Part shown: one piece after another, positions 21,343 through 46,238 of the stretch | Numbering within the stretch: the stretch's first letter is position 1 | How the letters are laid out: every line of letters begins with the position of its first letter | Source: Polaromonas sp. CF318 | GTDB taxonomy: Bacteria > Pseudomonadota > Gammaproteobacteria > Burkholderiales > Burkholderiaceae_C | Length of the DNA: 64,000 nucleotides | Reading direction: 5' to 3' | Assembly (NCBI RefSeq): GCF_000282655.1 | Contig: NZ_AKIV01000021.1 | Span: 1-64,000 of the forward strand | Position numbers and translations under genes: made by a program | Notes under the pieces: model-generated | What the model was told of the DNA's origin: nothing | Seen by the model: only the letters and a program-made list of their open reading frames with translations | Databases searched by the model: none

Positions 21343-21753
21343 GGAATTCCTCCGTGTGTTGAGGCTCAGGCCAGCAGGCATTGTGCGCAGCCGGATGGGC
21401 CTGATCAATCCTCCAATAGGAGGAGAAAAACAGCTTCACCGGGTTTTGTGACGCGGGTATGTCCAGGCCGCCGCCAACGGGGCATGCAAGCAATAAAACA
21501 AGCAATGCAAAAAAAGCATGGCCAAAGCAATGTCTTTCTGGCGACATTGCGAGATCATTCAAGTTACAGCAAGCCAAGGCCATGCGCGCGACATTGAGGG
21601 CAAAACCCGTGGCGCATGGGCCTCTTGCAGCGTCCCAAACCATGCGGACCCCATGTGCATCGCCGCGACCCGCTTCGATACACAAGCCAAGCGAAAGCCA
21701 ACTCCCGCCGCCGGCCATGACGGTGCCGGGGAAACCACAACAGGGTGAATGAC
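21343..21753. promoter_or_regulatory. Divergent intergenic region with 24-bp palindrome (site f)
   Basis: 411 bases between the protease-nuclease fusion gene and a small plus-strand gene. It contains a perfect inverted repeat at 21527-21550 (halves GCAATGTC and GACATTGC, spacer 8 bases). Read toward the minus-strand gene the spacer is GCCAGAAA, close to the CGCAGAAA of sites a and e. A weak TTTTAT -10-like hexamer on the minus strand lies at 21498-21493. The region is less GC-rich than its surroundings and holds no convincing ORF. Confidence 0.6.
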
Positions 21754-22041
21754 ATGGAAGCCGTCAATGCAAGCCATGCAATGTCAATTTATCTGCCTCT
21801 TGCGCTGTATGTCGTTATCGCCGTCATCGGCTGGCGGCTGATGAAATGGCGCCGCAAGTGCAAGGCCCAGAGAGCCGTTTACTGGCAAGCCTGCTACATC
21901 AAGCTGGACAGCCTCGCCAGGTCCCACCGCCTGCGGGCCGCCGAGTTCGAGATCCAGGCCGAGAAATTCCGCCTGCGCTGGCAGCGGGAGCAGCGTGCCC
22001 TGCACAAAAAACGGTTTGACGAGATGTTTCTCAAACGATAG
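21754..22041 (+). CDS. Small membrane-anchored coiled-coil protein, unknown function
   Basis: 95 residues if the ATG at 21754 is used (AGGGTGA 5 bases upstream); GTG at 21745 is an alternative. One hydrophobic segment near the N-terminus (IYLPLALYVVIAVIGWRLM) followed by a strongly basic, heptad-like helix rich in R, K, E and Q (LRAAEFEIQAEKFRLRWQREQRA in overlapping pieces). No known domain recognised. It is the only plus-strand gene between 19 and 52 kb and faces the protease-nuclease fusion across the palindrome region. Confidence 0.55.
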   Translation: MEAVNASHAMSIYLPLALYVVIAVIGWRLMKWRRKCKAQRAVYWQACYIKLDSLARSHRLRAAEFEIQAEKFRLRWQREQRALHKKRFDEMFLKR

Positions 22042-22047
22042 GCCCAT

Positions 22048-22066
22048 GCCGGCCGTCGCGGCCGGC
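22048..22066. other. Hairpin between convergent genes
   Basis: GCCGGCC and GGCCGGC pair around a 5-base loop, just after the stop codon at 22041 and before the end of the minus-strand membrane-protein gene at 22089. No T run follows on either strand, so intrinsic termination is uncertain. Confidence 0.45.
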
Positions 22067-22088
22067 CGCGCCCTCGCCCTGGGAGGCC

Positions 22089-22493
22089 TCAGTTGCGGCC
22101 AAACTTTTTTTTACCCAGGTAGCCGAGGGCGGCAATGCCCAGCAGAACACCCCACTTGGTATACCAGGCGGCCCACCAGGGCAGCGTCTCCTCGTGAAGC
22201 GGGGCGGATGGCAGGTCTTTGACGGCCCAGAAGTCCAGGGCCGGCCACCAGCACAGCCACAGCAGCGACAGCAGCAGGGGCCAGACCGCCCGCGGGCCCA
22301 GCCAGGCAAAGTCATCCCTCAGTTTCCATGAAAGCCCGGTGAGCACCACCAGCACGGCCAGGCGTGCCAGCACCGGGCCGCCGGCGGTCATATCCAGGCC
22401 TAGATAGGCTGAAAATTTCCAGGCAACAAAGGCCGCCAGCGCCACCACGGCCACAAAAAGAAGCCAGCTGTCTTCACTGTCGACCTTGCCCAT
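22089..22493 (-). CDS. Integral membrane protein, unknown function
   Basis: 134 residues with four hydrophobic segments (WLLFVAVVALAAFVAWKFSAYLG; LARLAVLVVLTGLSWKL split by a charged turn; AVWPLLLSLLWLCWWPAL; WGVLLGIAALGYLG) and a basic C-terminus. Tryptophan-rich. No recognised family. Start at the ATG at 22493, two bases past the stop codon of the TPR-glycosyltransferase gene (22496), so it is probably translated as the last gene of that secretion/glycosylation operon. Confidence 0.6.
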   Translation of the reverse strand: MGKVDSEDSWLLFVAVVALAAFVAWKFSAYLGLDMTAGGPVLARLAVLVVLTGLSWKLRDDFAWLGPRAVWPLLLSLLWLCWWPALDFWAVKDLPSAPLHEETLPWWAAWYTKWGVLLGIAALGYLGKKKFGRN

Positions 22494-22495
22494 GC

Positions 22496-24880: not shown

Positions 24881-25024
24881 GGTGGTGCCAAATTCACAAA
24901 TTGAAGCGCACGGAGGTTTCCCCCGCGCGCTTGCAGGTCCTCGTCAAGAACGCTTGCCGGGCATCCTCACCAGATCGCCGAACCGCCGCGGAACGGCATT
25001 ACCCGCCTCCCCCACATCCGTCCT

Positions 25025-25368
25025 TCAGGCGGCCGCGCTCAAATGAACACCCAGCGCCCGGACCACCGGCGACACTCACCCGGGGTTTCCTGGTTGAATA
25101 TCTTCAAGCTGCGATACCACGGGCTGTCCTCGCGCGGCGCCATCCAGCGCCAGCAGGCGTCAAAACGCGACAGCATCCAGGTCGGGCGGGCCAGGCTGGC
25201 GGCCAAGTGGACGCCGGCCAGCCGCCAGGCTTGCACCGACTCCGGCTGCGCCGCCAGCACCTCGTGCACCAGGCGTTCGCAGTCGGCCCAGCGCTTGCCG
25301 GCAGAGGCGCGGTTGGCCGCACGCAGGAACCTGCCGGCCACCGTGGAAATGGCCTGCCCTTCGTCCAT
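25025..25368 (-). pseudogene. Remnant of a second TPR-glycosyltransferase, internally deleted and frameshifted
   Basis: The open frame 25368-25039 encodes 109 residues. Residues about 25-55 look like one TPR unit (ADCERLVHEVLAAQPESVQAW), then the text jumps straight to VHLAASLARPTWMLSRF and WRWMAPREDSPWYRSLKIF, which aligns with the last 60 residues of the neighbouring TPR-glycosyltransferase (AHLAGALGKPCWVLLPV, WRWGLEGNDSAWYPSLRLF). After NQETPGE the frame is lost: in a frame shifted near 25072 the DNA reads on as SPVVRALGVHLSAAA and stops at 25025, the expected family ending. So most of the protein is deleted and the tail is frameshifted. It starts 1 base after the adhesin stop codon. Confidence 0.75.
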
Positions 25369-25369
25369 G

Positions 25370-27640
25370 TCAGATCACATTGGCCGTCACAGCGGTATTG
25401 ACCAGCAGGGTGACCGTATGCCCGCTGTGCATGTACTGGTACACGTCATAGGTCGTGCCGCTAATGACCACGTCATTGGTCGAGGCATTGCCCGCGCTGG
25501 AAGTCACCACGTTGAGGGTGGTACCGTCCACGTCCGTCAGGCTGCTGCCGTTCGCTGGCGTCGTCAGCGCTTCAGTCATGGCGTTCAGGTTCATGATGTC
25601 GCCCGCATTGCCCGTGATGCGTATGGTGTCGGCCACCGTGTTGCCGCTGGTGACGCTGGTGAAGTCCAGTACGTCTTGCAGACTCAGGTTCAGCGTCTGG
25701 TTGCCCGCGGCCGTCATGCTGATGATGCCGCCTGTACTGACCGTGATGTTGCGCGTGCCCGCGACGCTCGTATTGCCGGCCAGGTCGGTTTGTGTGGCCG
25801 AGAGGGTCTCCGCCCCCTGGTGCATGGCCGCGATGTCGGCAATCGTCGGGCTGTAGCTCCAGGTCGTTCCCGTGACCGTGGCCGCGTGCGCAGCGCCGCC
25901 GAAGCTCAGCGTCACCGTGGCGCCGGTTTCGTTGGTGCCGGTGATGCTGCTGAAGACTTCCGTGCTGTCGATGACGTCGTTGCTCGCCACGATGTCGATC
26001 ACCGGCGCCGCAGGCGCCGTGGTGTCAACGATGTAGTTGAGGTCGCTTGCAATGGCGGCGTGGGTCAGGACGACGTCCTTGCTGGCGCTGTCCTTGATGG
26101 CGCCGCCGTTGAGCGTCAGGCCGTTGGCCACCACCCCAAGGCCGTTGCCGTCCGTCTCCCCCGCCAGGATGGTGTAGGTAAAGGTCAGCGCCGTGCTGCC
26201 GCTGCCGCTGACGTAATCGTCCGTGGCGACCACCGCCATGGTGGGTGCCGCAGGGGCCGTGGTATCCACCTTGAAGCTGGCGCTGTCCGCAAGGGCGGTG
26301 TGCGTCAGGACGGCGTCATTGCTGGCGCTGTCTTTGATGGTGCCGCTGTTGAGCGCCAGGCTGTTGGCCGCCACGGCAATGCCGTTGGCATCCGTCTGCC
26401 CCGCCAGTATGGTGTAGGTGAAGGTCAGCTCGGTTCCACCGCTGCCGCTCACGTAGTTGGCCTGCACCGTGCTGCCGCTTATGTTCAGCGCCAGCTGTGG
26501 CGTGCCCGTCACCGTGACTGCCTCGCTGAAGGTGACCGTGGCCGTCACGATGTCATTCGCGTTCAGTGTGTTGTTCTGCACTCCCGCAGAACTCAGCGCC
26601 ACGCCAGCCACCGTCGCCCCGCTGGCATTGACCGTGATGGCCCGCGTGCCCGCAACGCTCAAATTGCCGGCCAGGTCGGTCTGCGTGGCCGACAGGGTCT
26701 CCGCCCCCTGGCCCATGGCCGTGATGTCCGCACCCACCAGACTGTAGCTCCAGACGCCCGAGCCGTTCGCCGTCACCGTGTGCACATTGCCCGCGCCCAG
26801 CGTGAGCGCCACGCTCGCGTTGGCCTCCGCCGTCCCCGTGATGACGCTGGCGGCTTCCAACGCGTTGTCGCCGCCACTAAACGATGTGACGTTGGTCCAC
26901 GTGGGGTGCGCCGTGCCGATGTCGCTGAACACCACCTGCTGGTTTGTGCCGCCGTCGCTGTTGTTGACCTCGCGCAGCAGCGTGTTGGTGGCGATGGAGC
27001 CGCCGTAAATGGCATCGGTCACGCCCGAGGCGATAACCTTGCCCTGGGCGTCGTAAATCCGGTAATTAAGCGCCGCGGTGACCGGGCCGGCGAAAGCGGA
27101 AATACTCACGGCAAAGGTGCTCACTGTCGCGGCGGCGGCAGTCACGGCAGCGGTACCCCCGCCGCCGCCGGCGATCGCCGCCAGGCCCAGCCCACCGCCA
27201 GCAATGGGAAGCCATGCCGCGCCGCCAGAACCAGCTGCGCCGGAAGCACTGGCCGCCGTGGCTTCTTCCGCGGGCGCGGCGGCTTCGGTGGTGTTGGCGG
27301 CGACCACGTCGTACGAACTGTCGACGGACGATTCGGCATTCTGGTCGCCTTCAGATTCACCGAGGCGTTTTTTGCGCAGGAGCTTGTCGGCAGATTGACG
27401 GGCCTGGCTGGCGGCGGCTTCCTGTTCCATCTGGATGGCAGCGGCGGCGTTGGGCGCTGGCGCCTTGCCGGCCGTCGCAGGTTTTGCTGACTGGACGGCT
27501 TTTTCGGCGGAAGTGGCCTGCTGGACAAACACCTGCGGCGGGACGGTGTGCGCGGCGGCGACCGTGACGGGCAGGTTTTCCGCGTGCACCGGATTTGCGG
27601 TGGCAACGGTTTGCTTGTCGGCTTGATGGGGCTGGTTCAT
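25370..27640 (-). CDS. Short Ig-repeat surface adhesin, likely type I secretion substrate
   Basis: 756 residues. N-terminus is Ala/Gln/Lys-rich and highly charged, then a glycine/alanine hydrophobic stretch (about 143-180, LPIAGGGLGLAAIAGGGGG) like the N-terminal retention module of BapA/LapA-type adhesins. From about 190 follow Ig-like repeats: units ending QTDLAGNLSVAGTRAITV and units with YVSGSGGTELTFTYTILAG ... KDSASNDAVLTHTA. The second copy of the latter lacks its first half. The C-terminal about 110 residues (NLSLQDVLDFTSVTS ... YQYMHSGHTVTLLVNTAVTANVI) resemble the uncleaved type I secretion signal region of such adhesins. No Sec signal peptide. AGGAGA precedes the ATG. It follows the HlyD gene of the first secretion system on the same strand. 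Far shorter than most family members. Confidence 0.85.
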   Translation of the reverse strand: MNQPHQADKQTVATANPVHAENLPVTVAAAHTVPPQVFVQQATSAEKAVQSAKPATAGKAPAPNAAAAIQMEQEAAASQARQSADKLLRKKRLGESEGDQNAESSVDSSYDVVAANTTEAAAPAEEATAASASGAAGSGGAAWLPIAGGGLGLAAIAGGGGGTAAVTAAAATVSTFAVSISAFAGPVTAALNYRIYDAQGKVIASGVTDAIYGGSIATNTLLREVNNSDGGTNQQVVFSDIGTAHPTWTNVTSFSGGDNALEAASVITGTAEANASVALTLGAGNVHTVTANGSGVWSYSLVGADITAMGQGAETLSATQTDLAGNLSVAGTRAITVNASGATVAGVALSSAGVQNNTLNANDIVTATVTFSEAVTVTGTPQLALNISGSTVQANYVSGSGGTELTFTYTILAGQTDANGIAVAANSLALNSGTIKDSASNDAVLTHTALADSASFKVDTTAPAAPTMAVVATDDYVSGSGSTALTFTYTILAGETDGNGLGVVANGLTLNGGAIKDSASKDVVLTHAAIASDLNYIVDTTAPAAPVIDIVASNDVIDSTEVFSSITGTNETGATVTLSFGGAAHAATVTGTTWSYSPTIADIAAMHQGAETLSATQTDLAGNTSVAGTRNITVSTGGIISMTAAGNQTLNLSLQDVLDFTSVTSGNTVADTIRITGNAGDIMNLNAMTEALTTPANGSSLTDVDGTTLNVVTSSAGNASTNDVVISGTTYDVYQYMHSGHTVTLLVNTAVTANVI

Positions 27641-27690
27641 GGCAGGTCTCCTGGTTAAAAAAGAAAAGGAAAGAAAAGAAAATCAAACGA

Positions 27691-28860
27691 TCAACGTTCG
27701 GAAAAGGCTTCGGAAAAAGTCTTGGTGATGGGCTTGGTGAGGTAGCGGAAAATCGAGTGGCTGGTGCCGCGGATATCGATGCTGGCGGTCATGCCAGGCT
27801 GGATTTCGATGGGCTTGTGCCCGCTCACGTGGTGCCGCTGCGCCGGGTCGAGCTGCACCTGCACGCGGTAGTAGATGTTTTCGCCGGTGCGCGTTTCCTC
27901 GGTAAGGGCGTCGGCGCTGACGTATTTCACGGTGCCCGACAAGACGCCGTAGATGGCGTAGTCGTAGGCATCAAGCTTGACGGCGGCTGGCTGGCCCACA
28001 TGGATGCTGGCGATGTCGGCGGGCTTGAACTTGCCCTCCACCACGAGGTCGCTCCCGCTGGGGGTGAGTTCCATGACGACGTCGCCGGCCTTGACCCGTG
28101 AGCCGAGGGTGGTGAAGCGGATGTTGCGCACGGTGGCGTCCGCGGGCGCGCGGATCTCGGTGCGCTCATAGGTGGTAGCGCGGTCGGCGAGCACCTGTTC
28201 CTGGGTGGCCAGGTCTTCCTCGGCCTTGGTCATTTCGGCCTGGGCATCCTGGAAGTACTTGTTGCGCCGGTTGGTGATCTGGCCTTCGAGCTCGGCGACC
28301 TGTTTTTGCAGACGGATGATTTCAACGCGGGAGATGTCGCCACTCTTGAGCAAGGGCTCGCTGATGGAGAGTTCGTCGCGCGTGGAGGCCAGCATGGACT
28401 GCAGCGCGGCGGCTTCCTGGTTGACGGCACGCTGGCGGCGCTGGAAAAGCTCGGTCTGGTTGCTGACGAAGGACGGGAACTGCTGAACCTCCGGAGGAAA
28501 CACCAAGGGCCGCCCCAGGACTTCGGCGTGCAGGCGTACCAGCGCGGCCTTGAGCGCAGCGACCTTGGCACGGCTGTCGCTGAGCGAGGCCAGCCCTTGT
28601 TCGCGCTCGAGCATGACGAGTACGTCGCCCTTCTTGACGCGGCCGCCTTCGCGCACCAGAAATTTCTCGATCACGCCGTCGTTGGCGGCCTGCACGAGCT
28701 GGGTGCGCGAGCTGGCGATCACCTGGCCGGTGCTGCGCGCGATCTGCTCGACGTCGAACCACAAGCTCCATGCGACAAAGCAGCCGATGATGAGAATAAG
28801 CAAGGCGATGAGGCGTTGTGCCGACCGCAAAGCCGGTGATGTGGGGTATGGGGATTTCAT
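27691..28860 (-). CDS. Type I secretion membrane-fusion protein, HlyD family
   Basis: 389 residues. One N-terminal transmembrane helix (LIALLILIIGCFVAWSLWF), a barrel half with VIASSRTQLVQAANDGVIEKFLVREGGRVKKGD (lipoyl-like), a long coiled-coil hairpin (about 90-250) and a C-terminal beta domain (DATVRNIRFTTLGSRVKAGDVVMELTP). Bridges the inner-membrane ABC exporter to the TolC-like channel. Its start overlaps the stop of the ABC gene by 4 bases. The 50-base gap before the adhesin gene is a purine-rich A/G tract. Confidence 0.93.
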   Translation of the reverse strand: MKSPYPTSPALRSAQRLIALLILIIGCFVAWSLWFDVEQIARSTGQVIASSRTQLVQAANDGVIEKFLVREGGRVKKGDVLVMLEREQGLASLSDSRAKVAALKAALVRLHAEVLGRPLVFPPEVQQFPSFVSNQTELFQRRQRAVNQEAAALQSMLASTRDELSISEPLLKSGDISRVEIIRLQKQVAELEGQITNRRNKYFQDAQAEMTKAEEDLATQEQVLADRATTYERTEIRAPADATVRNIRFTTLGSRVKAGDVVMELTPSGSDLVVEGKFKPADIASIHVGQPAAVKLDAYDYAIYGVLSGTVKYVSADALTEETRTGENIYYRVQVQLDPAQRHHVSGHKPIEIQPGMTASIDIRGTSHSIFRYLTKPITKTFSEAFSER

Positions 28861-31031
28861 GCGGCAGCCTCCTGTGGCGCGCCGGGATGGCCGGCGGCGG
28901 CCGGGGGACGGGAACGGGCGGCAAGCTGCTGCAGCACCAGCGCCTTGGGACCGTCCATGACGACGCCGGTGGGCGACAGGATGACCAGCCTGTCCACCAT
29001 TTGCAGCAAAGCGGGTTTGTGGGTCACGATGACGAGCGTCTCGTCGATCTGCACACTGGCGCGCAAGGCCGCGATGGTGCGCGCCTCCAGGGTTTCGTCC
29101 ATGGAGGCAGTGGGCTCATCAAGCAACCAGACGTCGGGAGCAGCCAGCACCATGCGCGTCAGGGCAATCAGCTGCTTTTGCCCGCCCGAGACGCCTGTGC
29201 CGCCTTCGGCAATTGGCATGTCGAAGCCTTTGGGATGCGAGGCAATCACCTGCCGCAGGCCCGTGAGTTCGCAGGCGGCGAGCAGATGCTGCTCGGTCTT
29301 GCCGAGAACCCCGGTGGTGAGGTTGTCGCGCAAGGTTCCGGCGAACAGGCGCACGTCCTGCGGAAGATAGCCCAGGCGGTCGCTGAGGTGGGGCCGGGAG
29401 ATGTGCTGCAGGTCGATGCCGTCGAGCGAGACTCGGCCCTTGGAGGGCATGTACATGCCGGACATCAGCTTGAGCAGGGTGCTTTTTCCGCTACCGACAG
29501 GCCCGAGCAGGCCGACCTTTTCGCCAGGCTTGATGTGCAGGTTTTCCAGTTGCAGCACGGTGGCGTGGCCGCGGTAGCCGAATTCAAGGTTTTGCACGGC
29601 CACTTCACCACGCAGGCGGTCTATGGCCAGGGGACGTTCGACGGCGTGGTTGTCCTGCTCCAGGCTGAAGATGTGCGAGAGGCTGCGCATGGCCGACTTG
29701 GCATTGGCCCACTGCACCATCAAACCGGGCAGCATCCCGGCCGGCGTGAGCACGCGGCCGGAGATGATGGAGCAGGCAATGATGCCGCCGGAAGTCAGAG
29801 AAGTCGACGTGGAGGCCACATAAGCGCCGGTGGCGACCAGCAGCACATAGCTGATCTGCTGCAAAAATCCGGCGTAGTAGCTGGCCGAATCGCCCAGATG
29901 GCGCAGCCGCATGTCTTCGTCGATGTTGATGCGGGTCAGGCCGTTCCAGCGCGCCAGGAACTGCCAGCCGGCGCCGCTGGCCTTGATGGATTCCGCGCCT
30001 TCGACCGCTTCGACCAGCAGGCCGAGCTTACGGTTGGAAGCGGCCTGGCCTGAGAGCGCATGGCGCTCCATGCCGCGGCGAAAGAGAAACCCCACAGCCA
30101 GCGCCACGATGAAAAACACCACCGGCACTGCGGCAACCAGGGGACCGCCCAGCAGGTAAATCACAACCAGGAAAAGAATGGCGAAGGGCGTATCGACCAG
30201 CAGGTAGAGGGTGACCGAGGACGCGAAGGACCTGATCATCTCGTAGCTGCGCAGCTGGGCGGACAACGTCCCGACGCTGGCGGGAAATTGGTCCATGCGC
30301 ACACGCAGCAACCGTTCGAAAATGCTGTGCGAAAGATTGGCGTCCATGGAACGGATGGAATGCTCCGTGATGGTGGCGCGCGCGAATTTGGCGATCAACT
30401 CCAGCAGAATGCCTATGGCAATACCGGCCGTAAGCGCATACAGCGTGGACAGTCCTTGCGTGGGAATCACACGGTCGTAAACCTGCATGCTGTACAGCGA
30501 GGTCAGCAAGCCGAAAAGATTGATGACGACGGAGGCGATGGCCGCGTGGATGAAATACCGCCGGTTGTCGCGCAGCGCGCCGCGAAACAGTTCGCCCGCG
30601 GTGCGGTACAGGCTATCGCCCGTGGCGTGGCTTGCCTGAATTTCGGTGTAAAGCGCGTCTTCAGGCAGCACAGTGACGTGGCGATGGCCCGATTCGTCCT
30701 CAAGTAGCCAACCGCCGGCGGGCGTGTGCTGGTGAAGAATGAACACGCCGACGTCGGGGTGGACGGCGACAGCGGGCAGCCTGGCGGCCGCCCGGCCTTC
30801 CGTCCAGGTTTGGGAGCGCGCACCCATGGATGCAAAAGCATAATCCGCACAGGCTTGCAGCCTGTCGCGGGTGAGGCCTTGCTCCTGCGCGGCGGCCAGG
30901 CGGGTTTGGAGCTCTGCCACCATGTGCGATTTCATGGGCCGCAAGTCCTTGACGATGTCGGGCAGGCGGCGGGCCAGCCACAGCACGCTGCGCGTGGCAT
31001 GCGATGTCGTATTGGGCGATGGAGTGCTCAT
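28857..31031 (-). CDS. Type I secretion permease/ATPase, LapB-like
   Basis: 724 residues from the ATG at 31031, which overlaps the TolC stop codon by 4 bases. N-terminal soluble region (about 1-150) is a degenerate C39-like domain; then a six-helix ABC exporter domain (LFGLLTSLYSMQVYDRVIPTQGLSTLYALTAG) and an ATPase domain with Walker A GPVGSGKST (about residue 520), signature VSGGQKQLIALTRMVL and Walker B WLLDEPTASMD. These variants are typical of the LapB/LssB branch that exports large adhesins. Works with the HlyD protein encoded downstream and the TolC-like protein encoded upstream. Confidence 0.92.
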   Translation of the reverse strand: MSTPSPNTTSHATRSVLWLARRLPDIVKDLRPMKSHMVAELQTRLAAAQEQGLTRDRLQACADYAFASMGARSQTWTEGRAAARLPAVAVHPDVGVFILHQHTPAGGWLLEDESGHRHVTVLPEDALYTEIQASHATGDSLYRTAGELFRGALRDNRRYFIHAAIASVVINLFGLLTSLYSMQVYDRVIPTQGLSTLYALTAGIAIGILLELIAKFARATITEHSIRSMDANLSHSIFERLLRVRMDQFPASVGTLSAQLRSYEMIRSFASSVTLYLLVDTPFAILFLVVIYLLGGPLVAAVPVVFFIVALAVGFLFRRGMERHALSGQAASNRKLGLLVEAVEGAESIKASGAGWQFLARWNGLTRINIDEDMRLRHLGDSASYYAGFLQQISYVLLVATGAYVASTSTSLTSGGIIACSIISGRVLTPAGMLPGLMVQWANAKSAMRSLSHIFSLEQDNHAVERPLAIDRLRGEVAVQNLEFGYRGHATVLQLENLHIKPGEKVGLLGPVGSGKSTLLKLMSGMYMPSKGRVSLDGIDLQHISRPHLSDRLGYLPQDVRLFAGTLRDNLTTGVLGKTEQHLLAACELTGLRQVIASHPKGFDMPIAEGGTGVSGGQKQLIALTRMVLAAPDVWLLDEPTASMDETLEARTIAALRASVQIDETLVIVTHKPALLQMVDRLVILSPTGVVMDGPKALVLQQLAARSRPPAAAGHPGAPQEAAA

Positions 31032-32395: not shown

Positions 32396-32933
32396 GGAAA
32401 CGCGCTGCGGTGGGTCAACGGCCCGCAGGGCACGCGGGATGGAACGCTTGTTCGGTAGGGCCATGCAGACGGGCGGCGTTCAAGGCCTCGCCCCTCCCCG
32501 GTTCGGTTTTTGTTGGTGCGGCTTTGGGGCGTTTAGGGATGGATAAACGTGATTTGCAGGCCTCGGATCGCCTGGCCTCATAGGCCGGAATCTCTTTGTT
32601 TCCGTACGCGGTTACAAGACAGGAGTGCAAGAGCTGGGCCATGAAAAATCTTCTAAGTTGGAGACCGCCGGAGAGCGAAGGAATAAGCTGGTTTCAGCTT
32701 ATCGATATCTGTTACGTGGTTTTTAGAGATGGTCTTTCTGCGGACAATGTTTGTCGGTTTCCACTTTTCATTTGAAATAGAAGCTTGCTGATGGAAGGCA
32801 TGGTTCCGCCAGGCACGCGGGGACCGGGCACAAAAATTTCCCGTCTTGTCCGTTGGAGGGCTACCGGCCGGTGGATTGCCCGACAGATGGACAGGGTCTG
32901 GCGAACCGGCTTCAACGTCAGGCGCGAGCGCGC
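32396..32933. other. Long intergenic region between the two secretion units, with site a
   Basis: 538 bases without a supportable gene. The stretch 32640-32790 is clearly less GC-rich than the genes around it. It contains the 24-bp palindrome at 32727-32750 and a TAAGCT -10-like hexamer on the minus strand at 32701-32696. No good terminator was seen after the downstream end of the HlyD gene at 32934. Confidence 0.6.
32727..32750 (-). promoter_or_regulatory. 24-bp palindromic operator, site a (TolC/LapB-type secretion operon)
   Basis: Read toward the secretion genes: half ACATTGTC, spacer CGCAGAAA, half GACCATCT. A TAAGCT hexamer follows at 32701-32696, 26 bases from the end of the site. The same geometry holds at sites b and c with TATGCT. 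It is about 330 bases before the TolC-like start codon. Confidence 0.65.
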
Positions 32934-34370
32934 TTAACGCTCCCGCAAACCTTCTTGCGCGGCCTGCACCAGCGGGCTGAGGAAGAAAGAGATCACCCGG
33001 CGCTGCCCGGTCTTGATCTCGACATGGGCCACCATGCCAAAGCCCAGCGGCACATCGGCGCCGTCGACGGCGATGCTGGTGCGCGACAGCTGCACGCGCA
33101 CGGCATAGAGCAGGCCGCGCTTCTCGTCGGCGATGGCATCGCGGGAAACGTCAAGCACCACACCAGGTATGGCGCCGTAAGTGGTGTAGGGAAAGGTTTC
33201 GAGCTTGACGGCGACTTCCTGGCCCGCGCGCACAAAACCGATGTCCTTGTTTTCCAGCATGGCTTCCACTTCGAGCGGGTGCTCCCCGGGCACGATGACC
33301 ATCAGCTGTTGTGCGGGCGTGACGACGCCACCCACGGTATGCAGCGCCAGTTGCTGCACAGTTCCGGTGACCGGCGCGAGCATCCGGGTCAGGCTGCCGC
33401 GCCCCTGGGCTTTGCTCAGTTCCTGCTCCAGCGCGGCGGCGCGCTGCTGGCCCTCCTTGAGGCTGTCGAGGGTTGCGCGGCGAATCTCGGCCTTGAAGGC
33501 TTCGCTCTGGTGGCGGCTCTCCGCGACCGCGGCCTGCAGTTGCCGCACGCGCTCGCTCTGTACCGCCAATTCGCCCGACTGCTCGAGATAGGCCTGCTGG
33601 CGCTCAAGAAAAGTATGCTGAGCCACATAGCCGTCCCCGGCCAGTTTGTCCAGGTCAGAGGCACGCTGCCGCATCATGGGTAAAGTAGCCTGCAATTTGG
33701 CCACCTGCTCCCGGCTGGCGCGCAACTCGGCCTGGCGGGTGGTGATTTCCGCTTCGCTGCGCGTGAGCTTGGCGAGGTATTCGCCATATTGCCCGTCGAG
33801 CATGCGCGCCGCTTCGCGGTGCTGCTCGGCCGAGGCCTGGGACAGCTGCGGCAGGACCGGGGCCTTTCCGCGGGTCATCGCATCCAGAAGCGCACCCGCG
33901 CGCGCCACCTGCAACAGGGCGGCTTCGAGTTCGGCGCGCGAGCGCTCAATGTCGGCGGCCTCGGTGGTGGCGTCGAGTTCCACCAGAAGATCGCCAGCCT
34001 TGACGGCTTGCCCGTCTTTCACATGGATGGCCTTGACCACCGCCGCACTGAGCGGTTGCACCACCTTGGTATACCCGCTGGGGACGATTTTTCCGCTGGC
34101 AACCGCGACGATATCGATTTTCCCGAACACGCTCCAGGTGGCGGCGATGAGCGCAAACGCGATGAGCAACCACATAAAGATGCGCGGCGCGGCAGGCACA
34201 GGCGTCTCCTGCACCGCGAGCACGGCGGGCAAGAACTGCGCCTCGGCGGCCTTGTAACCGCGCGTGTCGGTGTCCCGGCGGCCTTGCCAGGCCAGGGCGA
34301 AGACGGCCTTGTAGCGCTCCAGCAATTCGCGCATCGCGCCCAGGCGTTGTTTAAAGCGGTCCATCGTCAT
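32934..34370 (-). CDS. Type I secretion membrane-fusion protein, HlyD family (second system)
   Basis: 478 residues, longer than the first copy. Transmembrane helix around residues 60-85 (FMWLLIAFALIAATWSVFG), lipoyl-like segment VVKAIHVKDGQAVKAGDLLVELDA, a long coiled coil (about 120-320) and the C-terminal VKLETFPYTTYGAIPG motif, which is the HlyD-type signature of RTX toxin exporters. Start overlaps the ABC gene by 4 bases (ATGA). Partner of the HlyB-like protein. Confidence 0.94.
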   Translation of the reverse strand: MTMDRFKQRLGAMRELLERYKAVFALAWQGRRDTDTRGYKAAEAQFLPAVLAVQETPVPAAPRIFMWLLIAFALIAATWSVFGKIDIVAVASGKIVPSGYTKVVQPLSAAVVKAIHVKDGQAVKAGDLLVELDATTEAADIERSRAELEAALLQVARAGALLDAMTRGKAPVLPQLSQASAEQHREAARMLDGQYGEYLAKLTRSEAEITTRQAELRASREQVAKLQATLPMMRQRASDLDKLAGDGYVAQHTFLERQQAYLEQSGELAVQSERVRQLQAAVAESRHQSEAFKAEIRRATLDSLKEGQQRAAALEQELSKAQGRGSLTRMLAPVTGTVQQLALHTVGGVVTPAQQLMVIVPGEHPLEVEAMLENKDIGFVRAGQEVAVKLETFPYTTYGAIPGVVLDVSRDAIADEKRGLLYAVRVQLSRTSIAVDGADVPLGFGMVAHVEIKTGQRRVISFFLSPLVQAAQEGLRER

Positions 34371-36553
34371 GCCCCCTGCATCGCATGCAGGTGCGCGTAC
34401 TGCCCACCCGGCAGGCCCAGCAGTTCCTCGTGCGTGCCTTGCTCGACAATCTGGCCCTTGTCGACAACCACGATGCGGTTCGCATCCCGGACGGTGGAGA
34501 GCCGGTGCGCGATGATGAGAACCGTGCGCCCGGCACAGATGGACTTCATGTTGTCCTTGAGAATACGTTCGGATTCGTAGTCCAGCGCGCTGGTGGCCTC
34601 ATCGAATATCAGGATCCGGGGATTGCCAATCAACGCGCGCGCGATAGCGATGCGCTGGCGCTGACCGCCTGACAGGGTGGCGCCGTGCTCGCCCACCAGG
34701 GTGTCATAGGCCTCGGGAAGTTCGATGATGAATTCATGGGCGCCGGCCAGCTTGGCGGCGGCGATGACCGCCTCAAGCGACATTCCGGTGTTGACCAGCG
34801 CGATGTTGTCGCGAATGCTGCGGTTGAACAGCATGTTCTCCTGCAACACCACGCCGAGCTGGCGCCGCACCGTGGTAGCGTCGGTGGTGGCGAGATCGAC
34901 GCCGTCTATCAGCACGCGTCCCTGGTCGGGGATGTACATGCGCTGCACCAGCTTGGTCAGCGTGCTCTTGCCGGAGCCGGACCGGCCCACGATGCCGACG
35001 ACCTCACCCGCGGCGACATCAAAACTGATGCCGCGCAAGACCTGCGGCGCGTCGGGCCGGTAGCGAAAGCTCACGGCGTCGAACTCGATATGGCCCTCGA
35101 TCCGGGGCATGGCGCTCTTGTTGCCGGCGATCTCGGGCCGGGTGTTCAGGATGTCGCCCAGGCGCTGCATGGAAATGCCGACCTGCTGGAACTCCGTCCA
35201 CAGCTGCGCCAGTCTGATCACGGGGGCCGCGACGTAGCCGGCGAGCATGTTGAAGGCGATCAGTTGCCCCACGGACAATTTTCCCTCCACCACCAGTTGT
35301 GCGCCCAGCCAGATGGTGGCCACGGTGACCAGCTTGCTGACCAGCGAAACGCCGTTGTTGGCCAGGGTGCCTATGGTGGTGGTGCGAAAGCCGGCTGCGA
35401 CGTAGGCGGCAAGCTGGTTGTCCCATTTCTGCGCCCATTGCGGCTGGACCGCCATGGACTTGACGGTGTCTATGCCGCCTATGGTTTCGACCAGGAAAGC
35501 CTGGTTTTCGGCGCCGCGGTTGAATTTTTCGTTGAGCCGAGCGCGCAGGACAGGCGTGAACAGCACCGAGAGCAGCGCATAGCAGGGCAGCGACACCACC
35601 ACGACCAGCGTCAGCCAGACACTGTAATAAAGCATCACCGCGAGAAAGACCACGGAGAACAACAGGTCGAGCACCACGGTGATGGCATTGCCGGTCAGAA
35701 AAGAACGTATGGTCTCCAGCTCGCGGATGCGGGCCACCGAATCGCCCACGCGCCTGGCCGTGAAGTAGGCCATGGGAAGGCCGAGCAGATGGCGAAACAG
35801 CCGCGCGCCCAGTTCCACGTCGATGCGGCTGGAGGTGTGGGCAAAGACGTAGCTGCGCAGGCCGGTGAGTACCACGTCGAACACCGAGATGACCAGCAGG
35901 CCTATGCAGACGACGTGCAGCGTGGTGAGGCCGTTGTGCACCAGCACCTTGTCCATCACCACCTGGAAGAACAGCGGCGTGACCAGCATGAAGAACTGGA
36001 GTACGAAGGACACCAGCAACACCTCGACCAGAGGCCGGCGGTACTTGACGACCGCGGGGAGAAACCAGCTGAAGTCGAACTTGGCCATTTCGCCCGCCAG
36101 CGACGCGCGCGAGGTGATCTGGATCAACTCACCCGACCAGCGCTCAAAGAGCGCCGCCAGTTCCAGCACCTGCGGGCCCGATGCGCCCGGCTCCTGAACC
36201 AGGGCCTTGTCCTGGTCGACCCGCGCGAGGATAAAAAAACCGCCGTCTTTGGCAGCAGCAATGGCCGGCAGCGCCGCCAGTGCCAGCCGCGCGCGCGACG
36301 GCTGCCTGCGCGCGGCCACCAGCCCCAGGCTTTTGGCGGCGTTGAGAATGTCGACGACATCCATGGCCTGGCCGTCACGGCTGAATTCATGCCGCAGTTT
36401 TTCGGGATCCGCGGCAACCGCGTGGAACTGGGAGAGCATCACAAGACAGGCGAGCCCGCTGTCTTGCACCGCAGCAGGCGCCGGCTGTGCAGCCGACGAT
36501 TGGGCGCGCGAATTGCCCGGCGGCAAGACCGAAACCACTGTGTTCATGACCAT
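34367..36553 (-). CDS. Type I secretion permease/ATPase, HlyB-like with inactive C39 domain
   Basis: 728 residues; GGAGGGAG precedes the ATG at 36553 (an ATG two codons later is possible). N-terminal C39-like domain (about 25-150) begins VQDSGLACLVMLSQFHAV: the catalytic cysteine of the DCG motif is replaced by serine, so it is a chaperone-like CLD as in HlyB, not a protease. Six-helix exporter domain follows (LFFQVVMDKVLVHNGLTTL), then an ATPase with Walker A GRSGSGKST (about 515), LSGGQRQRIAIARALI, LIFDEATSALD and IIAHRLS. This branch exports RTX-type proteins; the only candidate cargo seen is the Ig-repeat adhesin about 7 kb downstream. Site b lies 205 bases upstream. Confidence 0.94.
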   Translation of the reverse strand: MVMNTVVSVLPPGNSRAQSSAAQPAPAAVQDSGLACLVMLSQFHAVAADPEKLRHEFSRDGQAMDVVDILNAAKSLGLVAARRQPSRARLALAALPAIAAAKDGGFFILARVDQDKALVQEPGASGPQVLELAALFERWSGELIQITSRASLAGEMAKFDFSWFLPAVVKYRRPLVEVLLVSFVLQFFMLVTPLFFQVVMDKVLVHNGLTTLHVVCIGLLVISVFDVVLTGLRSYVFAHTSSRIDVELGARLFRHLLGLPMAYFTARRVGDSVARIRELETIRSFLTGNAITVVLDLLFSVVFLAVMLYYSVWLTLVVVVSLPCYALLSVLFTPVLRARLNEKFNRGAENQAFLVETIGGIDTVKSMAVQPQWAQKWDNQLAAYVAAGFRTTTIGTLANNGVSLVSKLVTVATIWLGAQLVVEGKLSVGQLIAFNMLAGYVAAPVIRLAQLWTEFQQVGISMQRLGDILNTRPEIAGNKSAMPRIEGHIEFDAVSFRYRPDAPQVLRGISFDVAAGEVVGIVGRSGSGKSTLTKLVQRMYIPDQGRVLIDGVDLATTDATTVRRQLGVVLQENMLFNRSIRDNIALVNTGMSLEAVIAAAKLAGAHEFIIELPEAYDTLVGEHGATLSGGQRQRIAIARALIGNPRILIFDEATSALDYESERILKDNMKSICAGRTVLIIAHRLSTVRDANRIVVVDKGQIVEQGTHEELLGLPGGQYAHLHAMQGA

Positions 36554-36757
36554 CCGCTACTCCCTCCCCTTGCGCCGTCTGCTCCGTGCAAGTCCGCGGC
36601 GGCGAACGCCCCGGTGTGCCAGCACGCAGCACTTCTACCTTACGAGCGTGCCGTGTGTTGTCTATGGCAAGCCGATAAGGCGCTTTTATGCGGTACCACT
36701 TTGGCAGTACACAGCATGGGAATCGAGCATAGTTTTCCGAACGGGGTGAAGCGAAGG

Positions 36758-36781
36758 ACATTGTCTTTGCGCAGACAATGT
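36758..36781 (-). promoter_or_regulatory. 24-bp palindromic operator, site b (HlyB/HlyD operon)
   Basis: Perfect inverted repeat: half ACATTGTC, spacer TGCGCAAA (read toward the HlyB-like gene), half GACAATGT. A TATGCT hexamer follows on the minus strand at 36731-36726, 27 bases away. No recognisable -35 box, as expected for an activator-dependent promoter. The 263-base gap 36554-36816 holds no other feature I can support. Confidence 0.75.
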
Positions 36782-36816: not shown

Positions 36817-37596
36817 TCAAGGCACTGCGGCCTCCTGCATCAGCACAATGAGCTCTTCCAGCGTGGGCTTGGTGATATTCATGCGGGCTTGCCGGTGTTT
36901 GCGGGAAAAGCGCAACCAGGTTTCCAGCGAACGCAATTCCAGCATGCCGTAGTTCACGCGCAACCAGCCGGCCGAAACGAGGTGATGCACGGCTTCGGAG
37001 AAGACACTGCGCGACACCCCGCAGACAGACGCGATGACGGTCTGCTTGACGGGAATCTCCACGGATGTGCCTTCCAACCCGTGCGTGGGTGGGCGCGACG
37101 AGTTGTAATACAGCGCTTCAGCGAACAGCGCCAGGCCCATGACCACCCGCAGCGGCGGGCTGCCCTGCTTCATGAGCACGATCATTTCCGAGTGCTGCCG
37201 GCTGCGCCAGGCCATCAGCAGGGCGATATAGCGGGAAAATTCCGGCTCGTCCTGAAATGCCGCCAGCGTGTCGGTTGCCGGCACGCACACCGCGCGGACC
37301 GGGGCCAGGCACACATAGTCCAGGCACGAGTGATAACGATTGAGCAAGGGCTCTTCGCCAAACCAGGTGCGGGGGCCGTAAATATTGACCTGGATGCAGC
37401 CGCCCTCCTGCAAAGGAACGCTGGCGCCCACCAAGCCGGAGACGATATAAGTCCAGGCGGCTACCTGGCCGCCCTTGGGCCAGATGACGTCGCCGGCATC
37501 GAAGGCCGTCATCTTCACACGGGACAGCATTTGCAGCGCAGAGCGCTCGCCGATTCCCAAGCCCGTCAACAATTGATATATGTATGCGCCAGACAT
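36817..37596 (-). CDS. Crp/Fnr-family transcriptional regulator
   Basis: 259 residues from the ATG at 37596 (AAGGGGATAGGG just upstream); the frame is open to 37629. N-terminal cyclic-nucleotide-binding-type barrel (about 20-150): FDAGDVIWPKGGQVAAWTYIVSGLVGASV. The cAMP-pocket motif is not conserved, and there is no FNR cysteine cluster, so the signal is unknown. C-terminal winged helix: VKQTVIASVCGVSRSVFSEAVHHLVSAGWL. It lies between the secretion operon and an orphan gene, both preceded by 24-bp palindromes, so it is the best candidate for the protein that binds them. Probably co-transcribed with the 140-residue gene 70 bases upstream. Confidence 0.88.
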   Translation of the reverse strand: MSGAYIYQLLTGLGIGERSALQMLSRVKMTAFDAGDVIWPKGGQVAAWTYIVSGLVGASVPLQEGGCIQVNIYGPRTWFGEEPLLNRYHSCLDYVCLAPVRAVCVPATDTLAAFQDEPEFSRYIALLMAWRSRQHSEMIVLMKQGSPPLRVVMGLALFAEALYYNSSRPPTHGLEGTSVEIPVKQTVIASVCGVSRSVFSEAVHHLVSAGWLRVNYGMLELRSLETWLRFSRKHRQARMNITKPTLEELIVLMQEAAVP

Positions 37597-37666
37597 CCCT
37601 ATCCCCTTAACGTCGGAAAGCACTGGCAAGCACTTCCGCTTTTTTTGATTTCACACGGAACACGAA

Positions 37667-38089
37667 TCAGGAGAGCGCCTTGACCGGCATGAAGGGCATG
37701 GGCGTCGTGTCAACCCACACGCCTGGCCGGTATTGGGCGTTGCGGTCTTTTTGCGGCGATCCCGGCGGCCGGCTGGGCATGAAGCGCAGCAGGTCGTTCA
37801 ATGCGGCCGCATCAGGCAGCACCGGCAAGGAAAGCACCGAGTCCCGCCGCCCCGTGAGCACAACGGTTTCGGCGCCGCATCCATCGACCAGCAACTTGAG
37901 TTGCCTCCAGTCCAGGCGCGCCGCATTGATAAGCGTCACATCGGGGCAGGACCGGCCGTTGGAGCCATCGGCCCGCCATTCAGCCCAATGCACGGCTTTG
38001 CCTTTGTCGCGCCCCATCTGCGCCCGGAGTGCCTGGAGCACCGCTTCGTCCTCCGCCAGAAACTGACTGAGCTCGATAAAGTACATCAT
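37667..38089 (-). CDS. Orphan 140-residue protein, unknown function
   Basis: Starts at the ATG at 38089 (MMYFIELSQFLAEDEAVLQAL), with AAGGGGAC upstream; the frame is open further but that part looks non-coding. Mixed alpha/beta composition without membrane segment or signal. A middle part TLINAARLDWRQLKLLVDGCGAETVVLTGRRDS looks like a Rossmann-type strand-helix-strand. The C-terminal third is proline-rich and probably disordered (FMPSRPPGSPQKDRNAQYRP). No family recognised. Site c stands about 115 bases upstream and the Crp/Fnr gene follows 70 bases downstream, so it belongs to the same regulated unit. Confidence 0.6.
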   Translation of the reverse strand: MMYFIELSQFLAEDEAVLQALRAQMGRDKGKAVHWAEWRADGSNGRSCPDVTLINAARLDWRQLKLLVDGCGAETVVLTGRRDSVLSLPVLPDAAALNDLLRFMPSRPPGSPQKDRNAQYRPGVWVDTTPMPFMPVKALS

Positions 38090-38414
38090 GATGGTTGTCC
38101 CCTTGAATGGCTGAGCAGGTTCATGTCCTGCCATCGATGGGCGTCGATGGCGGTCGCCTGGAAGCGATGAACCAAGCATAGGCCGCTCAAGAACAATTGG
38201 GCGCAACATTGTCCGCACGAAGGCAATCTCGGTGCCTTTTTGAAAATTCGCATGCGGCCTAGGGCATTCCCGGTAGCGCTGGGCAGAAACGTAGAGGCGT
38301 GATGCGCGGGCCGGCGTTGCGGAGCTTGCCGTCAACATGCCAGGTCGCGGCGCTTGCGGATGCACAGCCATCACGACGATACGCGGCAGCTTGCGGGCCG
38401 GCTCGCCGCAGCAA
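38090..38414. other. Intergenic region carrying site c
   Basis: 325 bases between the orphan gene start and the end of the FAD-dehydrogenase gene. It holds the palindrome at 38206-38229 and its -10-like TATGCT. Otherwise nothing supportable was seen. Confidence 0.5.
38206..38229 (-). promoter_or_regulatory. 24-bp palindromic operator, site c (orphan gene and crp/fnr gene)
   Basis: Read toward the minus-strand genes: half AGATTGCC, spacer TTCGTGCG, half GACAATGT. TATGCT follows at 38180-38175, 26 bases from the site, the same hexamer and nearly the same distance as at site b. If the Crp/Fnr protein is the binder, this would be autoregulation. Confidence 0.65.
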
Positions 38415-39515: not shown

Positions 39516-40447
39516 AGGCGTATGCCCCAGGCGAAAGGGTCGCCGTCCTCGATCAGCAAGGTTGCCTCGGCGCTCATGTGGGCGCGCCCGCGCAAGGTCG
39601 GGATAACCTGGCCGTCCTCCACGGCGTAACTGGCCTCGAAGCGGCTGCCGATGATGCTCGCCTGGTGCCAGACCTCTCCGGGCGCAAGCTTGCCGTCGGC
39701 GGCCAGGCAGGCGATCTTGGCGCTGGTCCCGGTGCCGCAAGGCGAGCGGTCGTAGGCCTTGCCGGGGCACAGGACGAAGTTGCGGCTGTCCGCACCGCCG
39801 TCGTCGTCCGCGAAGAGCTCGATATGGTCTATCTCCGCACCGCCATCGCCCGTGATGCCCTGGGCCGCCAGTGCTTCGCGCAGCGACACGCTGTACGCGG
39901 TGAGGGCCTCCAGCCTGTCGCTGGCCACGCGCTGGCCGTGTTCGCTCGCCAGGAAAAACCAGTTGCCGCCCCAGGCCACGTCGCCGCGCACCGTGCCGTA
40001 ACCCGGCACGTCGACGGCCACCTGGTGCAAGTGCCGCCAGGCGGGCACATTGCGCACGCTCACCGAGCCGTCGCCATGCAGCGTGGCCGTGACGGTGCCG
40101 ACCGGTGTCTCGATGCGGTGCGCGCCGGGCCTGATCAAGCCCATGTAGGCCAGCGAGGCCACCAGCCCTATGGTGCCGTGCCCGCACATGCCCAGGTAAC
40201 CGGTGTTGTTGAAAAAGATCACGCCGGCGGCGCTGGCCGGGTCCACCGGCTTGCACAGCAACGCGCCCACCACCACATCGCTGCCGCGCGGCTCCAGCAC
40301 GGCGGCGGCCCGCCAGTCGTCGTGCCGCTGCGCCAGCAGCGCGCGGCGCTCGGCCATGCTGCCCTTGCCCAGATCGGGAAAACCATCAATAACAAGGCGC
40401 GTCGGTTCGCCGCCGGTGTGGGAGTCAATGACTTTGATTTGCTTCAT
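39512..40447 (-). CDS. 4-hydroxyproline 2-epimerase (proline racemase family)
   Basis: 311 residues. Cofactor-independent two-base racemase fold with both catalytic cysteines visible: [12 protein letters not shown] (about residue 88) and [12 protein letters not shown] (about 237). Two thiols are needed for racemase/epimerase activity; trans-3-hydroxyproline dehydratases have threonine at the second place, so epimerase is favoured. Starts with [19 protein letters not shown], a family signature. Overlaps the FAD dehydrogenase gene downstream. Confidence 0.92.
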
Positions 40448-40769
40448 GGTGCAAGCCTGCGGTGTTGGTTCGGTGATGAGCTTACTTCTTCAGCCGTGCA
40501 GCACGGCACGGGAAACCGTGGCGCACCTGGCGCCGGACGGATGACGGCCCGGCAAAATTCCCGGGCGCAAGAATGAATCAGGCAAATATTCCTAAAACAA
40601 AGGGATTAAATTTAGTCATATTTAATATATTAATGAAATATTAAAATTGACTTTACAGGGTATCAAGCAGCTTGCCAAGCCGCCTTTTTTGCGCTTGGCG
40701 GGTAAATTTGTAAAACCGCCGGAACGTCCGGCGGCGAGCGGTGTGGACGCGGGCGCGACCGCCCTGGCC
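40448..40769. promoter_or_regulatory. AT-rich control region upstream of the hydroxyproline module
   Basis: 322-base gap. Positions 40570-40650 are strikingly AT-rich for this window and contain a perfect 12-bp palindrome TTAATATATTAA at 40622-40633 followed closely by AATATTAA. This is likely the promoter/operator of the epimerase gene (minus strand). The rest (40660-40769) lies behind the stop codon of the receiver-like gene and shows nothing else. Confidence 0.45.
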
Positions 40770-41270
40770 TCAGAGCGCAGCGAGACTCAGTTCCCGGGGA
40801 GCGTCCATCCTGGAGATCCTGCGCCGCTGGGGCCTGGAAAAAGCACAGGCACCGAGAATATGCAGGAGATCCTCCTGCACAAAGGAAGTGCCCAGGTACA
40901 TCGGGCTGACGCGGGAGAGCTGGGTGCGGAAGTGGTCGATGAGCGCGCGCCGGCAAGTGACGGGTATGACGGTGACGGCGCGGGACGCCGCCAGCTGCGC
41001 CAGAAAAGCTTCCATCGCCGTGCTTCGGTTTGCGCTCATGTGCTGCTCGCGCAGGCGCACAAAAACCACACAATGCCGGAAGGTCTCGAACATCCACGGC
41101 GCGCCCGTCAGCGGCGTGGCGTCTATGCGCGTGATCAGCCTCGAGGCGGACAGCATTTGCAGCCGGCTGTGAAAATCCTCGACGGCGAGTTCGTGAAACT
41201 CCACGAGCAGCACGCGAACACCAATTCCTTTGTGCAAGGTATTGAATTCAAAAGAGTCTCTGGCACTCAT
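40770..41270 (-). CDS. Receiver-like protein without output domain, unknown function
   Basis: 166 residues from the ATG at 41270 (AGGGGATACCT upstream, nearly the same ribosome-binding sequence as the crp/fnr gene). Strand-helix pattern resembles a response-regulator receiver: VRVLLVEFHELAVEDFHSRL, RLITRIDATPL, RHCVVFVRL, MEAFLAQLAASRAVTVIPVT, YLGTSFVQEDLLHIL. The acidic pocket and the phospho-accepting aspartate are not in place, so it would be a pseudo-receiver; the assignment is by pattern only. The C-terminus is basic (SRPQRRRISRMD). Site d lies about 113 bases upstream. Confidence 0.5.
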   Translation of the reverse strand: MSARDSFEFNTLHKGIGVRVLLVEFHELAVEDFHSRLQMLSASRLITRIDATPLTGAPWMFETFRHCVVFVRLREQHMSANRSTAMEAFLAQLAASRAVTVIPVTCRRALIDHFRTQLSRVSPMYLGTSFVQEDLLHILGACAFSRPQRRRISRMDAPRELSLAAL

Positions 41271-41382
41271 AGGTATCCCCTGCTTCGCCGAGGCCTGGTG
41301 CGGATTGACTAAGAGGAACATGGGCGGCACCAGCCGGTCGGCGTCGCCGCAGTGTCTGCGAGAACGCCGGGATGTACAGGGG

Positions 41383-41406
41383 ACTTTGTCTACGCGCGGG
41401 CAATGC
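41383..41406 (-). promoter_or_regulatory. 24-bp palindromic operator, site d (receiver-like gene)
   Basis: Read toward the minus-strand gene: half GCATTGCC, spacer CGCGCGTA, half GACAAAGT. More degenerate than sites a-c, and only a poor -10-like sequence (GACACT, 41356-41351) is at the usual distance. Confidence 0.5.
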
Positions 41407-41488
41407 TTGCCGGAAAACACAACTATTTATGTATGCCCCGCAAGCTTTCTGGCGCCGGGCGTCCGCAAGAATTTCCGCTGATCAACAC

Positions 41489-41544
41489 TAAATGTCCGCA
41501 GAAACACATTGTCGGCTTGCCCACGCCGGCACGATTTTTACAAT
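41489..41544 (+). promoter_or_regulatory. Palindromic operator site e plus sigma-70-like promoter of a probable small RNA
   Basis: Site e (41489-41512) read on the plus strand: half TAAATGTC, spacer CGCAGAAA (identical to site a), half CACATTGT. TACAAT at 41539-41544 is a good -10 box 27 bases after the site; TTGCCC at 41517-41522 sits 16 bases upstream of it as a possible -35. Transcription would start near 41551. Confidence 0.6.
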
Positions 41545-46232: not shown

Positions 46233-46238
46233 GGGAAC

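Follow-up and report, generated by a model that had tools for sequence, protein, structure and literature searches.

The window analysed here, a 64,000-nucleotide stretch of the genome of Polaromonas sp. CF318, a bacterium of soil and water, takes in nearly all of contig C21 (64,312 bases) of an assembly of 5.0 Mb in 159 contigs. It contains a cluster of 24-bp operators with the core TGTC-N8-GACA, placed before genes for type I secretion, an adhesin-like protein, a Crp/Fnr-family regulator and a small RNA; this cluster is referred to as the island. There is strong evidence that the shared operator defines a regulon of seven sites, five of them within 20 kb, and these sites are likely to be read by the Crp/Fnr-family protein encoded at 36817-37596, designated P0001. 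Probably they make up a small Crp/Fnr-type regulon, specific to this lineage and serving attachment and secretion, which P0001 would both read and turn on. Computation shows directly the sites and how many there are in the genome, as well as the geometry of their -10 elements and their conservation. A complete small regulon can be predicted from the sequence: it comprises seven promoters, a single candidate reader and one small RNA, and Polaromonas sp. JS666 has most of it as well.

The operator and its distribution

Six 24-mers had been proposed in an initial annotation of the window, and all were found at the coordinates given. They are lettered here a to f in coordinate order (21527, 32727, 36758, 38206, 41383 and 41489). 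The outer bases pair at all eight positions in a and c, at six of eight in b and d, and at five of eight in e and f. The initial annotation, whose letters did not follow coordinate order, had called b and f the perfect repeats; these are in fact the sites at 21527 and 36758. The TGT-N10-ACA dyad expected of a Crp/Fnr-type operator is exact in three of the six island sites and one base off in the remaining three. The operator of E. coli CRP is TGTGA-N6-TCACA, and the earlier statement that the spacing of the sites is not that of CRP is wrong, since TGTC-N8-GACA contains TGT-N10-ACA at an identical spacing. This agreement strengthens the annotation's own guess of a Crp/Fnr reader.

At up to three mismatches the pattern ACATTGTC-N8-GACAATGT occurs four times in the window, whereas 100 dinucleotide shuffles averaged 0.11 and never gave as many as four. 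The sites at 21527 and 41489 lie outside these four matches. Across the whole genome five sites are found at up to two mismatches and none for a reversed-pattern control, whilst at up to three mismatches there are 12 and four, respectively. A genome-wide weight-matrix scan, as the initial annotation had proposed, was run over both genomes with a profile of 24 positions, for which 11 site sequences were used (eight from this genome and three from JS666), the tested sites included. Seven strong sites were returned in this genome (c, b, C15, d, C43, a and f, where C15 and C43 denote sites on the contigs so numbered) at E 7.5e-4 to 0.024, followed by a gap to the next match at E 1.2. For JS666 the scan listed six, from E 0.001 up to 0.173: c, d, a, f, C43 and C15, ahead of the same gap to E 1.2. 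As the profile was trained on these sites, what the scan establishes is that the 5 Mb contain next to nothing else of this kind. Furthermore, five of the seven strong sites fall within 19,986 bp, which none of 200,000 random placements matched. The proposed local regulon is therefore well supported as regards a shared operator, by the scan, the clustering, the distance to the -10 element and the comparison with JS666, but it is not confined to the island, given the sites on C15 and C43.

Chance, or a dispersed repeat devoid of regulatory role, is a very improbable source of these sites. The excess of only 12 matches over four in the control indicates that part of the weaker genome matches is noise. 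Against such an origin stand the break that follows the seventh match in the profile scan, the fixed distance to the -10 element, the upstream positions, a conservation above that of the flanks, and the lack of any evident shared surrounding sequence. Judged by eye, the flanks of different sites appear unrelated to one another, which suggests that the sites are not copies of one duplicated promoter. The weaker three-mismatch matches on C46, C144, C27, C38, C86 and C72 all fall below the profile gap, and C72:30173, C76:23292 and C154:3439 were also left out of the regulon.

The spacer of the operator is asymmetric. All 11 sequences carry C as the third spacer base following TGTC, and the two A's before GAC are at least 90% conserved, the full consensus being approximately ACATTGTC-CGCASAAA-GACAATGT. 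The spacer points along transcription in six of the seven strong sites, if a serves the gene on its minus side; operator a is given the minus strand because it is assumed to serve that gene.

Promoter geometry and the sign of regulation

A -10-like hexamer starts 25 or 26 bases past the site in six of the seven strong sites (b TAAGCT, c TATGCT, d TATGCT, f TACAAT, C15 TAAGCT and C43 CAGAAT). The summed -10 score of the seven promoters at offset 25/26, a sum which includes operator a although it has no hexamer there, is 33.6, compared with a mean of -27 (standard deviation 12) over 90 offsets, and was reached by none of 2000 mononucleotide shuffles (maximum 29.4). The -10 hexamers reported by the initial annotation are thus real after 32727, 36758, 38206 and 41489, at 25-26 bases, but none comparable follows 21527 or 41383 at the common distance. 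No good -35 box is present, the best matches being just two to four of six at spacers of 15-19. If transcription starts seven bases after the hexamer, the centre of the operator lies at -49.5 to -50.5 in six of the seven promoters.

In the proposed mechanism a dimer of P0001 would bind TGTC-N8-GACA with its centre some 50 bases upstream of the presumed start and would turn on promoters possessing a -10 element and a poor -35 element. Its targets would be its own operon (the orphan gene and crp/fnr), hlyB-hlyD, the TolC/ABC/HlyD/adhesin operon, the anti-hemB-like small RNA, the type IV pilus-like operon on C15 and the small gene on C43, with the protease-nuclease gene a probable further target. 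The predicted output of the regulon is attachment and secretion.

Activation is favoured because the promoters lack good -35 boxes. The position of the operator is less readily accommodated. As described in part of PMC10882989, activation by CRP in E. coli takes place from -41.5, from -61.5 and from positions further turns away, and when a CRP site was shifted to -50.5 no optimum of activity was seen there. In part of PMC3688515, ndh, pdhR and cydAB of E. coli, with FNR sites at -50.5 and -53.5, appear among the operons that FNR represses directly. Neither CRP nor FNR of E. coli is known to activate from a centre near -50, and this counts against the proposed mechanism, as do several features of individual sites. 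Operator a has no comparable -10 element at the common distance, the spacer of operator d is reversed relative to transcription, and site e is marginal, its score of 10.5 bits (E 5.2 in the profile scan) being by itself indistinguishable from background. The same E. coli data, set beside an estimated geometry of -49.5 to -50.5 here, could point to a repressor which blocks RNA polymerase from near -50, like FNR at E. coli ndh, until a signal releases the regulon. We consider this unlikely, as -35 boxes matching at two to four of six positions suit dependence on an activator better than they suit a strong repressed promoter.

Activation by the Crp/Fnr protein from near -50 is thus possible but unproven. 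A more elaborate version can be put forward tentatively: a Crp/Fnr activator with a fixed centre near -50, working at -35-poor promoters through a 24-bp operator with an asymmetric spacer, may unite one attachment programme of one Polaromonas branch. The geometry would then fall between the two classical CRP classes, and a programme of type I secretion, adhesin, pilus-like system and anti-hemB-like RNA would have arisen or been acquired. If P0001 does activate from near -50, this would represent a new geometry for one of the best-studied activator families.

The candidate regulator

P0001 belongs to the Crp/Fnr family, matching PF00027 at 30.6 bits (cut-off 27.5) and PF13545 at 27.0 bits (cut-off 27), and the profile of its subfamily matches solved CRP structures. 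An ATG start at 37596 was preferred to a TTG at 37629. Sites d and c flank the gene, d lying beyond the orphan gene, and P0001 is the sole regulator among the open reading frames (ORFs) scanned inside the site cluster. A copy 99% identical is present only in JS666 among 149 genomes (this genome and its relatives), the next best being 49% identical. JS666 alone was likewise returned when 84,980 species, each represented by one genome, were scanned by a method that reaches close relatives only. Among 87 genomes of the genus, profile matches at E <=0.2 number seven in this genome, six in JS666 and one in genome G061, in a search whose stricter filters can lose weak matches; P0001 and multiple sites thus co-occur in the same two of the 87.

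The residues of P0001 set it apart from its best-known relatives. In E. coli CRP, Arg82 and Ser83 hold the cyclic AMP (cAMP) phosphate, and FNR has N-terminal cysteines for its iron-sulphur cluster. When the 99% identical orthologue from JS666 is aligned, it retains Glu72 of the CRP pocket while having Ser and Cys at the Arg82 and Ser83 positions, so that the cAMP-phosphate residues of an E. coli-type CRP are not kept. Nor is P0001 an FNR by this measure, its first cysteine being residue 78, with none in the first 77. It is suggested by these features that P0001 has neither classical cAMP binding nor an FNR-type cluster.

Comparison with known systems reveals both parallels and differences. 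CooA of Rhodospirillum rubrum has an operator of the TGTC...GACA type, like that of the island. E. coli CRP shares with the P0001 system the protein family and the TGT-N10-ACA operator symmetry, but its operator has TGTG/CACA where TGTC/GACA is found here, its centres are at -41.5 or -61.5 and not near the -50 estimated here, and its cAMP-phosphate residues have no counterpart in P0001. The base-reading residues Arg180, Glu181 and Arg185 of CRP (from part of PMC12531629) correspond to Arg, Ser and Glu in P0001. FNR at E. coli ndh has its operator centre at -50.5 (part of PMC3688515), as is estimated here; however it represses at that promoter, and P0001 is without its N-terminal cysteines.

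Further evidence weighs against P0001 as the reader. This genome and JS666 are sisters, so that the co-occurrence of protein and sites amounts to one evolutionary event. G061 has one comparable intergenic site and no close relative of P0001. Allowing up to two mismatches, 21 of the 149 genomes contain the plain pattern, mostly once, and two matches each are found in G087 and in four genomes from the order level, G098, G099, G141 and G145, although the reversed-pattern control also gives two matches in some genomes at that threshold; G087 carries two P0001 paralogues. The exact TGTC-N8-GACA was found in none of 16 P0001-subfamily genes, the JS666 orthologue included, from -350 to +60 of the ORF, and at 12 loci of P0001 paralogues the best score was 17.0, compared with at least 19.9 for the six sites. 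These two results rule out a motif common to the whole P0001 subfamily. Taken together, the Crp/Fnr reader guessed by the initial annotation stands as the best candidate, by the CRP-type symmetry of the operator and by its own presence with multiple sites in the same two genomes of 87, with the reservation that those two are sisters.

Another reader of these Crp/Fnr-type operators might be sought in the protein with the recognition helix SRQRVNE (encoded on C154), in a paralogue 45% identical on C39, or in a further regulator. When 41 distinct Crp/Fnr genes were examined for exact TGTC-N8-GACA from 350 bp upstream to 60 bp into the called ORF, the palindrome was present near the start in 13 of 14 SRQRVNE-type genes of the genus (some from genomes that are near relatives), the C154 gene among those with it upstream. 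This operator class is therefore at home with Crp/Fnr proteins in the genus. Moreover, P0001 matches seven places in this genome, its own gene included, and the helix of the C39 paralogue, SRAVFSE, nearly equals SRSVFSE. The two sets of operators can largely be told apart, however, those of SRQRVNE type departing from the island operators in flanks and spacers. The island matrix gives the seven island sites leave-one-out scores of 19.8-33.9 (b and C15, being near copies, raise each other's) and 12 SRQRVNE-type sites 7.9-20.8, ranges which just touch, and the reverse matrix gives 15.0-33.8 against 9.3-20.0. No strong island motif was found near the C39 paralogue, within the genus, genomes that lack P0001 have at most one profile match, and outside the cluster the regulators among the window ORFs scanned (not every ORF) are just a LysR protein (10730-11632) and NrtR (52758-53525). 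A different reader is, on this balance, a good deal less plausible than P0001 and rather improbable.

We abandoned the notion that TGTC is dictated by a Glu at the CRP-185 position. The exact palindrome is found also in one of three genes with Gln (SRQRANQ) and in the lone gene with Val (SRQTLSV), and no recognition code is accordingly claimed. The palindrome upstream of the SRQRVNE gene, at L111:3435-3458 and in related loci (L112, L115, L117, L070 and L116), is in many genomes directly followed by AAGGGT and a conserved block. The GACAATYCAAGGGT junction occurs exactly once in this genome and once in JS666.

Conservation in Polaromonas sp. JS666

The sister genome JS666 is 87-94% identical across long aligned blocks. 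Sites a, c, d, e, f, C15 and C43 are all kept there, whilst site b falls in a region which is missing. These seven orthologous sites show 6 changes in 168 bases, whereas their flanks show 119 in 1193 (one-sided Fisher p 0.003; roughly 70 bases of flank lying between e and f enter the count twice). Site e is identical in JS666, but lies within a well conserved stretch. The -10-like hexamers of c, d, f, C15 and C43 are also kept. The corresponding JS666 stretch (G032 C8, L060) is without window positions 22494-35770, 13.3 kb comprising the TPR-glycosyltransferase gene, the adhesin, the TolC/ABC/HlyD operon, hlyD and most of hlyB; this loss refers to the compared stretch, just the operator having been searched for elsewhere in JS666. 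The regulator, the operators and the 5' part of hlyB are retained.

Genes of the island

The elements and genes of the regulon are listed in Table 1. The genes predict the parts of a type I secretion apparatus, namely an ABC exporter, an HlyD adaptor and a TolC channel. No obvious substrate gene stands beside the HlyB/HlyD system, and the protease-nuclease fusion (19069-21342) has no GGxGxD repeat. By reason of its presumed co-regulation, the protease-nuclease protein could be the HlyB/HlyD substrate. Secretion of LapA/LapB-type adhesins offers a comparison for the second system, in which TolC, an LssB-like ABC exporter and HlyD are found beside an adhesin with Ig-type repeats. The island adhesin is short (756 aa), unlike the LapA/LapB type.

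Table 1. Operators, promoter elements and genes of the proposed regulon (window coordinates unless a contig is given)
Feature	Position	Strand	Remarks
Operator a	21527..21550	-	8/8 inverted repeat; 17.8 bits, E 0.021; one difference in JS666; between the protease-nuclease gene (-) and a + strand ORF at 21745-22041
Operator b	32727..32750	-	20.4 bits; upstream of TolC/ABC/HlyD/adhesin operon
-10-like TAAGCT	32696..32701	-	25 bases past operator b
Operator c	36758..36781	-	8/8 inverted repeat; 22.3 bits, E 7.5e-4; upstream of hlyB-hlyD; two changes in JS666
-10-like TATGCT	36726..36731	-	26 bases past operator c; kept in JS666
Operator d	38206..38229	+	19.6 bits; upstream of the - strand orphan gene and crp/fnr, from which its asymmetric spacer points away; identical in JS666
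-10-like TATGCT	38175..38180	-	25 bases past operator d; kept in JS666
Site e	41383..41406	none assigned	Marginal; 106 bp from operator f
Operator f	41489..41512	+	17.7 bits; upstream of small RNA; two changes in JS666
-10-like TACAAT	41539..41544	+	26 bases past operator f
Operator C15	C15:37896-37919		Before type IV pilus-like operon
Operator C43	C43:31920-31943		Before 129-aa gene
Protease-like (Nal1_C) and S1/P1-nuclease-like fusion	19069..21342	-	Nuclease part below Pfam cut-off; ATG at 21342 chosen by analyst
Adhesin-like protein	25370..27640	-	Big_6 and Ca-tandemer repeats
HlyD-family protein	27691..28860	-
Type I secretion ABC transporter	28857..31055	-	Nearest model LssB, below its cut-off
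TolC-family outer membrane protein	31028..32464	-	PF02321 above cut-off
HlyD-family membrane fusion protein	32934..34370	-
HlyB-type ABC transporter	34367..36553	-	TIGR01846 above cut-off
Crp/Fnr-family regulator (P0001)	36817..37596	-	cNMP-binding domain and HTH_Crp_2; helix SRSVFSE
Orphan gene, 140 aa	37667..38089	-	No family match; first gene after operator d
So-called receiver-like gene, 166 aa	40770..41270	-	No family above curated cut-off; start chosen by analyst
Small RNA, anti-hemB-like (RF02837)	41551..41642	+	Terminator hairpin and T run; 5' end estimated

The small RNA downstream of operator f

The small RNA at 41551-41642 folds with -45.6 kcal/mol (z -6.8), a value reached by none of 200 shuffles. 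It matches the whole RF02837 model at 41563-41642 (36.5 bits, E 2.7e-5), a score which, like the 34.6 bits of the JS666 copy, falls short of the gathering score of 49.5, so that neither qualifies as a member of the family. An above-cut-off copy is present in this genome at C153:8328-8418 (51.7 bits). RF02837 matches at E <=0.001 were obtained in 123 of 149 genomes, 104 of them above the cut-off, and in three of 14 control genomes, below it, by a search with stricter filters which does not list the island copy. The family is known as ncS04 in Burkholderia cenocepacia (part of PMC5688073), and the island RNA resembles its members in being a whole-model match with a terminator, but differs in scoring below the threshold. 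It looks like an anti-hemB-like paralogue placed under operator f. What regulates the accumulation of small RNAs in general in B. cenocepacia was described as unknown in 2017, in part of the same source; the anti-hemB-like RNA here would have a proposed promoter control.

Sites outside the island

The operator on C15 precedes an operon encoding a FimV-like protein, three N-methylated pilin-like proteins, a secretin and a TPR protein, and the same gene run, scanned on the JS666 copy, includes a MshEN/T2SSE ATPase and a T2SSF protein. With a secretin, N-methylated pilins, an assembly ATPase and T2SSF all represented, the operon encodes a type IV pilus-like system, perhaps of the MSHA type. The FimV-like gene has matches in 51 of 91 genomes, the only close one being in JS666 (80%; next 31%), and no strong site was found at the three distant FimV-like loci scanned (L127, L128 and L135). 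The three pilin-like genes stand in tandem here (L002:9752-12280) whereas one ORF was picked in JS666, suggesting a change in copy number between the two genomes.

The 129-aa gene downstream of the C43 operator (L001:8075-8464) has no Pfam family above cut-off and matches phrog_20383, a PHROG (phage protein family) of unknown function. It is present in two of the 91 genomes searched, this one and JS666.

Elsewhere in the window, positions 45171-55145 hold a cluster for the metabolism of nicotinamide adenine dinucleotide (NAD), with a NUDIX/cytidylyltransferase protein, NAD synthase, NAPRTase and NADAR. The same cluster also encodes the NrtR regulator, a Tpt1/KptA 2'-phosphotransferase and an ADP-ribosylglycohydrolase.

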